A DNA stretch of 64,000 nucleotides from Halovenus carboxidivorans (lineage in GTDB: Archaea; Halobacteriota; Halobacteria; Halobacteriales; Haloarculaceae). Both the position numbers and the translations under genes were made by a program. The stretch is from NCBI RefSeq assembly GCF_009831575.1, contig NZ_WUUT01000001.1, forward strand, positions 395,345 to 459,344, given 5' to 3'. Below are positions 51,082 through 59,590 of this stretch, piece by piece (the stretch's first letter is position 1; the number at the start of each line of letters is the position of its first letter). The notes below the pieces were generated by a model. The model was given only the letters and a program-made list of their open reading frames with translations, made no database searches and was not told the DNA's origin.

Positions 51082-52621
<1,540 letters not shown>

Positions 52622-52849
52622 CAGATCGGGAGCCGTTCGATTTTCGTATTCATACCGCTGAGTTCGCCAGCGACAGCTGCTCGTGTCCGATCGCTCGTAA
52701 CGCATGCGCACGTATTCAGATGGCCTCGTACAACGCACAGACGGACCGAGACAATGCCACCGACCAGTCCCTGGCAAAAAGAGAGACTGCCGGAACGTGT
52801 AGTTGTTGTTGTGACTTCTCCCTCCTTAATCACCTCTATCCGACTCGAT

Positions 52850-52927
52850 ACCCCACCGTGTCGAATGTTCTGACCATAGCACAATCACTGAGCCACCCTA
52901 CCCACACCCCACCGTGTCGAGTGTTCG
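52850..52927. repeat. Two origin-box-like repeats beside an orc1 fragment
   Basis: ACCCCACCGTGTCGAATGTTCT at 52850-52871 and ACACCCCACCGTGTCGAGTGTTCG at 52904-52927 (each within the 24-base core) match the repeats around the intact orc1 at 57976-59590. Their spacing and position relative to the orc1 fragment mirror the right arm of the intact origin. They are probably a displaced piece of an origin. Confidence 0.78.
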
Positions 52928-52934
52928 ACCAGCC

Positions 52935-53321
52935 TCACAACTGACCCAGCACACGCTCCGGAAGCACAACCCCTTCCAGATCAGCGACGACCTCCTGAAC
53001 AATCCCCAGATCGACGCTGAACTCGTATTGGTAGTACTGCTCACCGTTTCGCCCCTCGTTGCGGGACTGCCGATCCAAAATACCAAGCATAGCAAGGTCG
53101 GCCAGATGATCGTGCATACGCCGACGCACCAACGGATCGATCTCAGAGCGGTCAGCGATCGTCCGATACCGAGGGTAAACCTCCCGAACCCGCGCAGGTG
53201 TGTCCTCCTCAACTGCGAGATGGAGTGTGGCCACGAGCGCGAGATGTCCGTGCTGGGTTAACTCCCGCATTCCGTGCTCGATCTGGCTCTGTTCGAGCTC
53301 TTCACGGGCGTCGTAATCCCC
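52935..53321 (-). pseudogene. 3' fragment of an Orc1/Cdc6 gene (fragment A)
   Basis: On the minus strand this encodes [20 protein letters not shown] and onwards to a stop at 52935. It matches the last third of the intact Orc1 at 58144-59352 almost residue for residue (winged-helix DNA-binding domain, with [11 protein letters not shown]). An in-frame TGA lies just upstream at 53322-53324. Most nucleotide differences from the intact gene are synonymous, so it derives from a related orc1 that diverged while functional, not from a recent duplication. Confidence 0.88.
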
Positions 53322-53356
53322 TCAACGATTCACTCGGTCAGTTCGACTAGAGTGAA

Positions 53357-53436
53357 AGAGTAGATTTCGTGTGCTTTTCGCCGTGCGCCACTCCAAGCAC
53401 AGACGTACACATAGAGAGTACGTTTCGTGTGCTCTC
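53357..53436. repeat. Imperfect direct repeat, possible second origin-box type
   Basis: AGAGTAGATTTCGTGTGCTT (from 53357) and AGAGTACGTTTCGTGTGCTC (from 53415) are two 20-base near-identical repeats 58 bases apart. The second overlaps the end of orc1 fragment B, as the other origin-like repeats lie next to the end of fragment A. They are unlike the CGACACGGTGGGG type, so they may be recognised by a different Orc1. Inference from position. Confidence 0.5.
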
Positions 53437-53604
53437 ACCGGGTGTGTTTGGCGATCTCCGTCCGGGTTTCTAACACAATCTCTGGATCCAGATCCAACTC
53501 ATACTCGTAATACTGGCCACCGCTCAACCCCTCATTCCGCTCATGGCGGCGAAGGAATCCCAGCATATGGAGGTCTGAGAGGTGATCCTGGATGCTTTTT
53601 AATG
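53435..53604 (-). pseudogene. 3' fragment of a second, divergent Orc1/Cdc6 gene (fragment B)
   Basis: On the minus strand it encodes TLKSIQDHLSDLHMLGFLRR, then [20 protein letters not shown] and a tail to the stop at 53435. This is the winged-helix end of an Orc1, but clearly a different lineage from the intact gene and fragment A. The homology stops at about 53600, where a fucose-synthase tail begins, so the two pieces are joined directly. Confidence 0.82.
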
Positions 53605-53679
53605 TCGACAGCGTTTCGAGACGGATTGCGCGAGACAATCGAGTGGTACGAGAATCACCGCGATGAACTCCATGAGTAA
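53602..53679 (+). pseudogene. Fucose synthase C-terminal remnant, copy 2
   Basis: This encodes MSTAFRDGLRETIEWYENHR and DELHE, then TAA. It matches the last 25 residues of the truncated fcl at 51415-52173 ([20 protein letters not shown]). The ATG at 53602 is probably fortuitous. The remnant keeps the 8-bp overlap with the downstream Nudix gene. Confidence 0.85.
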
Positions 53680-54127
53680 GTGGATACCCGACGAGGAATG
53701 GGCGACAATCGTTCGAAACGTGCCCATTGTGTCCGTCGATCTCCTCATACGGTCAGAGGAGGGAATCGTCCTCGGCAAACGGACCAACGAACCTGCGAAG
53801 GGAGAGTGGTTTATTCCAGGCGGACGAGTCCACAAGGGAGAGACAAGAACGGAAGCAGTCGACCGTATCGCTGCGGACGAACTGGGAGTCGAAGTCGAAA
53901 TCGTGGAATCGCTCGGTGCCTTCGAGCACATCTACGAGACTGCAGAGATCGGCGGGGTAGGAACCAAACACTATCTCGCAAACGGATATGTCGTGGACCC
54001 ATTGACCGACCAATTCCAAGCCGATGGACAACACGCCGATTTTCAGGTATTCACTGCAGCACCGCAATCACTGCATCAGAACGTGCGTGCCTATATCCAA
54101 GCGGCGGAGACGGCTGAACTATCGTGA
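53672..54127 (+). CDS. GDP-mannose mannosyl hydrolase-like Nudix protein, copy 2
   Basis: A 151-residue paralogue of copy 1 with the same Nudix-type motif (PGGRVHKGETRTEAVDR, IAADELG). I use the ATG at 53672 (MSKWIPDEEWATIVRNV) because it matches the starts of copies 1 and 3; an ATG nine bases upstream also exists. The reading frame is intact. It differs from copy 1 mainly at synonymous and some surface positions and uses more A/T-ending codons. Confidence 0.87.
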   Translation: MSKWIPDEEWATIVRNVPIVSVDLLIRSEEGIVLGKRTNEPAKGEWFIPGGRVHKGETRTEAVDRIAADELGVEVEIVESLGAFEHIYETAEIGGVGTKHYLANGYVVDPLTDQFQADGQHADFQVFTAAPQSLHQNVRAYIQAAETAELS

Positions 54128-56520: not shown

Positions 56521-56679
56521 GAACTTGACACCGCACGTAGCGAGGAGCAGCCGAGACGAAAGCTGAACATGACACTTGGAGAATAACGATTCAGCTGGGG
56601 AGCATCAACAGAATTCCGCGACGGGCTCCGCGAGACGATTGCGTGGTACGAACAGCACCGAGACGAGGAACATGAGTGA
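56521..56679 (+). pseudogene. Fucose synthase C-terminal remnant, copy 3 (with internal stop)
   Basis: This encodes ELDTARSEEQPRRKLNMTLG, then E, a TAA at 56584-56586, and RFSWGASTEFRDGLRETIAW, YEQHRDEEHE and TGA. It aligns with the end of the truncated fcl ([20 protein letters not shown] then [11 protein letters not shown]). It is longer than remnant 2 but carries a nonsense codon. The stop overlaps the Nudix start by 8 bases, as in copies 1 and 2. Confidence 0.86.
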
Positions 56680-57127
56680 GTGGGTACCGGACGAAGCGTG
56701 GGAAACAATCGTTCGGAACGTTCCGATTGTCTCCGTCGACTTGATTGTTCGAACGGAGAGTGGGATTGTGCTGGGAAAACGTCAGAATGAGCCCGCGAAA
56801 GGTGAGTGGTTCATCCCGGGTGGGCGCGTGCTCAAAAACGAAACGCGAACAGAAGCGGTCCATCGAATAGCGAAACATGAACTCGGTGTGGAGGTAGACG
56901 TGATTGAGTCACTCGGTGCGTTTGAGCATATCTACGACACAGCGGAAATCGAGGGAGTAGAGTCAAAGCATTATTTGGCGAACGGATACGTCGTTGACCC
57001 CAAGACCGAGCAGTTCCAACCAGATGATCAGCACGCTGATTTTCAGGTCTTCACCTCGCCGCCGGAGTCACTTCATCCGAATGTTACGGCGTACATTGAA
57101 GAGGCCAGTTCACTCGGTTGGGAATAA
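56672..57127 (+). CDS. GDP-mannose mannosyl hydrolase-like Nudix protein, copy 3
   Basis: A 151-residue paralogue of copies 1 and 2 (MSEWVPDEAWETIVRNVPIV), with PGGRVLKNETRTEAVHRIAK followed by HELG. The start at 56672 matches the other copies; a longer frame upstream runs into the fcl remnant. It is the most AT-rich copy. The frame is intact, so it may be functional. Confidence 0.87.
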   Translation: MSEWVPDEAWETIVRNVPIVSVDLIVRTESGIVLGKRQNEPAKGEWFIPGGRVLKNETRTEAVHRIAKHELGVEVDVIESLGAFEHIYDTAEIEGVESKHYLANGYVVDPKTEQFQPDDQHADFQVFTSPPESLHPNVTAYIEEASSLGWE

Positions 57128-57451: not shown

Positions 57452-58011
57452 GCGTACATCCGATGCAGTACAACCGACGGCAGTACCAGTGCATCGAGAT
57501 ACCGTTGGACTGTCTGCTGGCTTTTGACTGTCCGCTCGGCAACACTGGTTATGATAATCCGTTGGGAAGCGCCGTCCAGTCGCAATTCACTTGCGAGTGA
57601 CTGGCAGTACCGCGCCCAGTCGTAGGTACTCCACTCGCGGAGGATAATCGCAGACTCTGTCGCAGACAGCGCGCCCAGTACTGACTCGTGAACAACCACT
57701 GGCAGAGACCCCCAGTCAAGATCGGTCGCCACCTGGTAGCGCTGCCAGCCATCAGTGGCGTGAGACGCTGAGCTTGCACCATCGGGACGAACAATCAATG
57801 GCTGGCATAGCCCGTCCCGAGCAATCGACTGCTGCAACGCTTCGCTCGGGGGCACACGCCGAGGGTTGTGCTTCCAGTGAACTGACCGCTCAGTCGAGTA
57901 CCTACGAGTATGCTGAGACGTTCGTCGACACTTCCTTTTTGAGCGTTGTCTAAAACAGACTGAGCCTATTCTCCCACACCCCACTGTGTCGAGTGTTCTT
58001 ACAACACTCAA
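57415..58011 (-). CDS. ParB-like nuclease-domain protein, apparently truncated at its 3' end
   Basis: The frame encodes a ParB-type core: [35 protein letters not shown], then [20 protein letters not shown], and a helix-turn-helix region ([20 protein letters not shown]). It stops at 57415 soon after that region, shorter than typical ParB proteins. The start is uncertain: the frame opens at a TTG at 58011 and runs through an origin-like repeat (57976-58000), so the true start is probably downstream of 57970. ParB-like proteins beside an Orc1 gene fit plasmid-style partition. It may be a remnant. Confidence 0.6.
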
Positions 58012-58112
58012 GCCACGAGGCTATTTCCACGCATACACCCCACCGTGTCGAATGTTCTTAGTTTGTTTTTTGAGTTTCTACTTCATTGGACGCATTCGAC
58101 GCGGTGGTTTTA
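57976..58112. repeat. Left cluster of origin-recognition-box-like repeats
   Basis: Two copies in one orientation: ACACCCCACTGTGTCGAGTG at 57976 onwards and ACACCCCACCGTGTCGAATG at 58035 onwards (each followed by TTCTT). One degenerate copy lies in the other orientation, GCATTCGACGCGGTGG at about 58092-58107. They sit just upstream of the intact orc1. The core is a short palindrome-like CGACAC/GTGTCG flanked by a GC-rich G-string, as in archaeal ORBs. Confidence 0.75.
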
Positions 58113-58143
58113 TTATGTTGGGATACGCATGCAAAATCATCTG

Positions 58144-59352
58144 ATGACAACCTTCACTCGCGATACAGAGATTTTCCGCGATGAGGATATGCTCCGTGAA
58201 GATTATCAGCCTGAGTCAATCACAGCCCGTGAAGAAGAATTGGAGAACTACACAAAGGCACTTCAGCCAGTTGTCAACGGTGCCCAACCACGGAATATTT
58301 TCTTGTATGGCAAGACAGGAGTCGGAAAGACAGCAGTCTCACGATTTCTTCTGGACCGACTCGAACAAGATATTGAACGGTACGACGATATTGATCTATC
58401 GGTATACTGGCTCAACTGTACGAACCTTTCCTCATCCTACCAAGTTGCGGTTAATCTCGTGAACACGATTCGCGCTCCTAGTGAGCAAATTAGCACGACC
58501 GGATATCCGCAACAGCGGGTCTTCGATATTTTGTACGATGAGCTCGATACCATTGGTGGGACAATCCTACTCGTTTTTGACGAGATCGATCAAATCGGCA
58601 ACGACGATGAAATCCTCTATGAATTGCCTCGTGCTCGTTCAAACGACTATCTCGAATCCGCAAAACCAGGTGTGATTGGTATCAGCAACGATTTCGGATT
58701 CCGAGACGATCTCTCTCCGAAAGTTAAGGACACCCTCTGTGAAGAAGAGATCCACTTCTCGCCGTATAACGGCCCAGAACTCGAAGCAATTCTGCAAGAA
58801 CGCGCCGATGGGGCGCTGTTTGAGGATGCGACTGAACAGGGAGTGATCCCGCTGTGTGCTGCGCTTGCTGCACAGGATACCGGGAGTGCACGGCAGGCAT
58901 TGAACCTCCTGTATAACGCGGGCGAGTTGGCTAGGACGGAGGCCAAATCTGTAATCTCAGAAGCTCACGTCCACGATGCTCGTGACGAACTTGAACAGAG
59001 CCAAATTGAACATGGAATGCGGGAATTGACCCAGCATGGTCACCTCGCACTTGTAGCCACGCTCCATCTCGCACTTGAGGAAGATACGCCTGCACGAGTA
59101 CGGGACATCTATCCCCGATATCGGACAATAGCCGACCGCTCGGAGATCGACCCGCTCGTGCGCCGTCGAATGCACGATCATTTAGCTGACCTTGCTATGC
59201 TCGGAATTCTTGACCGACAGTCCCGTAATGAAGGGCGAAGTGGTGGCCAGTACTACGAATATGAGTTCAGTGTTGATCTAAGGATTGTTCAAGAGGTCGT
59301 GGCTGATCTAGAAGGGGTTGTGCTCCCGGAACGTTTGCTGCGCCAATTATAG
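58144..59352 (+). CDS. orc1: Orc1/Cdc6 replication initiator
   Basis: A 402-residue AAA+ ATPase that binds origin boxes and loads the replicative helicase. The start at 58144 ([20 protein letters not shown]) is used; a frame opening at 58045 would run through an origin box. Motifs: Walker [21 protein letters not shown], Walker [15 protein letters not shown], sensor 1 [10 protein letters not shown], and a C-terminal winged helix ([20 protein letters not shown]). The gene is intact and flanked on both sides by related repeats, so it probably marks an active or recently active origin. Confidence 0.95.
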
Positions 59353-59366
59353 GGCTGTGTCGTGGG

Positions 59367-59590
59367 AAGAACATTCGACACGGTGGGGTGTGTATGTGCA
59401 GTCCTCAATACTTTATCGCGAGGGGGCGTAGAACACTCGACATGGTGGGGTGGGTGTCTTCCAACTGTTCTATATCAGCCCGTACCCCACGTGTACACGT
59501 TCGAGGTGTATCTATACTCTCTGCTACAATTGATCCACAACTTCCTGTAACGGCTCTCATGGGACAAGAACACTCGACACGGTGGGGTGT
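59367..59590. repeat. Right cluster of origin-recognition-box-like repeats
   Basis: Three copies in the orientation opposite to the left cluster: AAGAACATTCGACACGGTGG at 59367-59391, TAGAACACTCGACATGGTGG at 59429-59453 and AAGAACACTCGACACGGTGG at 59566-59590 (each followed by GGTG). The first lies 15 bases after the orc1 stop. Left and right clusters face each other across the orc1 gene, a layout seen at haloarchaeal origins. Confidence 0.78.

Follow-up and report, generated by a model that had tools for sequence, protein, structure and literature searches.

The window, that is, the whole stretch of 64,000 nucleotides of Halovenus carboxidivorans DNA analysed here, contains an intact orc1/cdc6 initiator gene flanked by five near-identical G-string boxes of the form GAACAYTCGACACGGTGGGGTG, two to the left on the minus strand and three to the right on the plus strand. 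A decayed second orc lies about 5 kb upstream of the live gene, with two boxes downstream of the remnant; these elements (52849-53414) were absent from an earlier note on the same DNA. The features, in coordinates of the window, are as follows.

52849..52870, minus strand: ORB of the decayed second origin
52905..52926, minus strand: ORB of the decayed second origin
52935..53414, minus strand: decayed second orc, winged-helix part intact (111-aa ORF), N-terminal part lost or out of frame
53453..53599, minus strand: fragment of the C-terminus of a third, more distant orc (55% identity)
57977..57998, minus strand: ORB L1, GAACACTCGACACAGTGGGGTG, core at 57977, G-string outward
58036..58057, minus strand: ORB L2, GAACATTCGACACGGTGGGGTG, core at 58036
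58051..58090, no strand: 40-bp stretch with the highest A+T content (72.5%) in the left intergenic region, lying between ORB L2 and the half-box of the promoter
58089..58113, plus strand: promoter-embedded half-ORB, GACGCATTCGACGCGGTGGTTTTAT (degenerate box TCGACGCGGTGGTTTT at 58096-58111), an ORB core with a TATA box replacing the G-string
58108..58116, plus strand: TATA-like box, TTTTATTAT, starting 36 bp before the orc ATG, which fits a leaderless transcript
58144..59352, plus strand: orc1/cdc6 initiator, 402 aa, with AAA+, lid, and winged-helix domains; 91% identical to the ortholog of archaeon SHR40
59369..59390, plus strand: ORB R1, GAACATTCGACACGGTGGGGTG, core at 59371
59431..59452, plus strand: ORB R2, GAACACTCGACATGGTGGGGTG, core at 59433
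59568..59589, plus strand: ORB R3, GAACACTCGACACGGTGGGGTG, core at 59570

The Orc protein is full length, without stop or frameshift, and AAA, Cdc6_lid, and Cdc6_C domains were identified by a Pfam domain search. Its closest solved relatives by sequence are Sulfolobus Cdc6-1 (Orc1-1; 2qby chain A) and Aeropyrum Cdc6 (2v1u). Comparison with the SHR40 ortholog gave a dN of 0.05 and a dS of 1.3 (dN/dS about 0.04); hence, Orc is kept under strong purifying selection. Haloarchaeal orc/cdc6-associated origins have been defined by the same features (Wu 2012; PMC3528665): an Orc/Cdc6 of >300 aa with AAA+ and winged-helix domains (402 aa at this locus), at least two G-string ORBs in an intergenic region adjoining orc (two on the left and three on the right), and an ORB type that follows the Orc family.

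The box pattern matched seven times in the window (the five boxes at orc plus 52849 and 52905), against 0.01 matches expected by chance. Genome-wide, the 15-base box core with at most one mismatch occurred eight times, namely these seven sites and one stray; apart from the stray, the boxes in this genome are confined to the two orc copies, live and decayed. The core differs from that of oriC1-type ORBs, which was not found at the orc locus, and the literature search returned no match for the box sequence. Six boxes, three per side and opposite in orientation, had been described in the earlier note as inward-facing clusters. Five of them were confirmed, and the left and right clusters are inverted relative to each other across orc; however, the degenerate sixth lies on the plus strand, opposite to the other left boxes, and the G-strings of all five boxes point outward, away from orc. 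The two left ORBs, both on the minus strand, are followed by the 72.5% A+T stretch, a candidate unwinding element, and the sole plus-strand partner there is the half-box, which carries no G-string. Inverted ORBs around an AT-rich element are a further criterion for such origins (Wu 2012); a classical inverted pair around the left AT-rich stretch exists only if the half-box is counted. A ParB-like frame had also been noted next to the locus. As a partition partner it was rejected, as the ParB_N match is weak (E = 2.9e-6, bits just above the cut-off), no plasmid match was found, and only one of the ortholog loci searched carries the frame, about 6 kb from orc. The frame opens only at a TTG upstream of a box and runs through that box.

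A scan of 392 sampled genomes of the order detected the box in 41 of them, spread over 19 of 95 genera, and the reversed control pattern in none. The type is widespread, and the view that this ORB is unlike known types cannot count as a sign of novelty. Orcs 71-91% identical to this one are encoded on plasmid pR1SE2 of Halorubrum lacusprofundi and in roughly a dozen further genomes. Their loci carry the same boxes, largely in the same outward orientation, in numbers that vary by species. The boxes differ at most Orcs of 55-59% identity, which ties the ORB type to the Orc family, and a few loci have the same box beside an Orc only 42-47% identical. Of the boxes in the loci fetched from the scan, many adjoin a same-family Orc, others lie next to an Orc of 42-47% identity, and for some the surrounding ~1.5 kb contain no Orc. 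A viral origin was rejected, with only four viral contigs carrying it, as single sites and with no Orc match. Gene order around the module is common to five Haloarcula-group loci (L044, L053-L056), and glycan genes (epimerases, glycosyltransferases, and nucleotidyltransferases) surround most of the non-syntenic orthologs. Several orthologs are broken; therefore, the module can be dispensable. A frameshift divides the G018 ortholog (L045 / L194) into two pieces that overlap (residues 1-249 and 241-402), and the G006 ortholog (L050 / L192; G006:C1, about 714.7-716.4 kb) is split after residue 20 by an insertion of ~1.6 kb, with the left boxes on its far side.

The half-box in the orc promoter is an ORB core in which GGGGTG is swapped for TTTTAT. 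All 13 orthologs whose upstream region is intact carry the plus-strand element CAC..GACGCAYTCGACACGGTGGTTTTAT, roughly 28-40 bp ahead of the start codon. Conservation among the orthologs is 91% in the half-box, compared with 59% and 49% in the sequences on either side. Other Orc families have the same promoter layout with their own cores, e.g., CTGCGGACAGGGGTGGTTTTAT beside the ORB CGGACATAGTGGGGT. Promoter windows were compared over 117 loci of 23 Orc families, with one representative per family. The window from -64 to -30 resembles own-locus ORBs more closely than it does the ORBs of other families (Wilcoxon p = 2e-5), and 8 of the 23 families beat every other family. Five control windows gave no resemblance to own-locus ORBs across the 23 families (p 0.18 to 0.92).

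Over 117 codons, the remnant winged helix is 92% identical to the live copy in protein and about 81% in DNA (dN 0.045, dS 1.56). The live copy, the remnant, and the SHR40 ortholog are about equidistant (about 81% nucleotide identity over the same 117 codons). Hence, a recent internal duplication was rejected as the source of the second orc, and the remnant stems from a separate module lineage. This island has, thus, held two related versions of the module, of which one has died. A winged-helix remnant with two downstream boxes, like the decayed copy of the window, also occurs in Halolamina pelagica (L047, 10001-10432). The start region of a nudix hydrolase gene is present in three diverged copies (52099-52398, 53605-53904, and 56605-56904; 68-73% DNA identity), interleaved with orc fragments and epimerase pieces, and the island looks assembled by repeated recombination at nudix, orc, and epimerase genes. 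Across the glycan cluster (35000-60000 of the window) G+C drops from about 65% to about 46%, marking a variable island with orc near its right end. The proposal that the origin is plasmid-derived and integrated beside the glycan cluster is plausible, given an 81% identical Orc with the same boxes on pR1SE2 and the glycan surroundings of most non-syntenic orthologs, but no integration boundary or plasmid integration end was found at the locus.

A GC-skew inflection at 58-59 kb had been suggested as support for an origin. Skew was run over the whole 1.075-Mb contig, with strand correction at fourfold sites in 75-kb bins on crude ORF calls. Raw skew is negative almost throughout the contig, with a weak positive bump at 375-450 kb; the weak change from positive to negative near 435-450 kb overlaps the low-GC island and vanishes at fourfold sites. 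After correction, skew is negative from 0 to 975 kb and merely weakened near the locus, with no sign change there. The inflection was, hence, rejected as origin support once gene strand had been removed. Without a sign change, the locus is not a long-dominant chromosomal origin. The left end of the contig carries an inverted pair of oriC1-like boxes, and this region has probably been replicated mainly by forks that started elsewhere. The predicted origin is probably secondary rather than main, and weak, dormant, or recently acquired in this host.

Haloarchaea have family-specific orc/cdc6-ORB origins, which frequently lie in variable islands that also hold polysaccharide genes (Wu 2012, 2014). 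Polysaccharide regions have been reported to contain species-specific origins, and cdc6g of H. marismortui is among the listed cases in which ORBs lie to either side of the gene (PMC3528665). We consider it likely that the locus is an orc1/cdc6-associated secondary replication origin of this known kind, placed in a low-GC glycan-gene island on a contig with an oriC1-type box pair. The anatomy, this precedent, and the fact that roughly a dozen further genomes have kept the entire module favor the candidate secondary origin of the earlier note. As anatomy the origin reading is well supported; that the module would fire, titrate Orc, and regulate itself we infer. Against this reading stand the skew, which keeps one sign, the single orientation of the left ORBs, and the broken orthologs; in addition, three origins predicted in H. 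hispanica (oriC3, oriC4, and oriC5) proved inactive when tested (PMC3528665, PMC4441112). Orc from the central gene would bind the G-string ORBs on both sides. The left region, with its two ORBs, the 40-bp AT-rich stretch, and the promoter half-box, is the likely site of melting and MCM loading. The three direct ORBs on the right probably modulate the left region, perhaps by titrating Orc, on the model of oriC2D in Haloarcula hispanica. The module would move and decay as a unit, since one ortholog is plasmid-borne, a dead second copy lies 5 kb away, and other orthologs are disrupted; this fits the gain, loss, and disruption on record for Haloarcula variable regions (PMC4441112). It would then add to the mobile haloarchaeal origins already known to move with glycan islands, between chromosomes and plasmids.

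Several known systems resemble the locus. A chromosomal origin of H. marismortui has a 73% identical Orc, the same box type on both sides, and glycan genes nearby. It is very probably among the origins predicted in 2012 and, on the available text of the published account, is probably oriC4-cdc6g by elimination, being chromosomal, with ORBs in both intergenic regions, and absent from H. hispanica. In the H. hispanica genome no Orc more than 59% identical to the present one was found, in line with the published description of a polysaccharide-region origin specific to H. marismortui (PMC3528665). Distinct from this H. marismortui origin, the present locus has a second, decayed copy. The oriC2-cdc6E/oriC2D region of H. 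hispanica likewise has ORBs upstream and an ORB cluster downstream of the initiator, with 11 downstream boxes compared with three here; the downstream cluster restrains oriC2, and titration of Orc has been proposed for oriC2D (PMC3936714). The origin region of pR1SE2, with its 81% identical Orc, has the same boxes on both sides and the same promoter half-box. It differs in lying on a 163-kb plasmid and in its box numbers, which, with up to four mismatches allowed, are six on the left and two to three on the right. Haloarchaeal oriC1 shares the ORB with G-string, the AT-rich stretch, and the adjacent orc, but its box core differs.

That the module is an active chromosomal origin, used in normal growth together with oriC1 in the way of H. 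hispanica oriC2, is possible though doubtful. The initiator is intact and under purifying selection, the box set is complete, and the syntenic version has been kept at one place in the five Haloarcula-group genomes, implying long-term use there; against this stand the unchanged sign of the skew, the unstable island with a decayed copy next door, and the patchy presence among genomes. At the other extreme, the locus may be a relic without function, left by the origin of an integrated plasmid or island and no longer replicating anything. The decayed copies nearby and the frameshifted (G018) and interrupted (G006) orthologs of other species point that way. Yet the live copy has neither stop nor frameshift and a dN/dS of about 0.04, and its ORBs and promoter element are conserved; we therefore regard a relic as unlikely.

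The overlap of the half-box with the orc promoter would also suit boxes that are mere regulatory sites of an Orc-like transcription factor, such as Sulfolobus Orc1-2, with no origin at all. Such a role is hard to reconcile with five full boxes in two intergenic regions, outside the promoter, and with a genome in which nearly all copies lie at orc rather than at many promoters. In addition, H. hispanica origins of this general layout replicate plasmids (PMC3528665). We hold this explanation to be very improbable.

Within the preferred reading, a secondary origin of a known kind, the promoter-embedded half-ORB is the newer detail and the most interesting lead. G-strings are essential for oriC1 in H. 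hispanica (PMC3936714), and the half-box has none; hence, it is more likely an operator than an origin ORB. Its conservation and the ORB resemblance across 23 Orc families suggest autoregulation of the initiator: the plus-strand half-box fused to the orc TATA box is probably the operator by which Orc represses its own gene. There is about an even chance that many haloarchaeal Orc families share such a switch, in which the orc TATA takes the place of the G-string and directly joins the opening part of the family's own ORB, forming a private operator that co-evolves with that ORB. No description of initiator autoregulation via a half-box was found in the literature searched, which took in few subscription papers; the available text of the main comparative paper on haloarchaeal origins (PMC3528665) makes no mention of TATA, promoter, or autoregulation. 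If the switch is real, each mobile origin would have its own copy-number control, which would help explain the coexistence of many origins per cell. An operator of this kind in many families would be a simple, testable rule for keeping about ten initiators per cell private and limited.

Two further observations concern related loci. Directly after orc, four genomes encode a conserved 602-aa ABC exporter, and pR1SE2 has a gene for an ABC transporter protein at that place (ABC transporter neighbours: L041:13113-14921, L050:10518-12323, L051:10982-12790, L052:11248-13053, and L049:16746-18542); other neighbours differ. At L213 (G267:C4, 76.6-77.0 kb), nine copies of the box in the same orientation, about 42 bp apart, form an iteron-like array beside an Orc only 47% identical, so that the same box occurs with a different Orc family.
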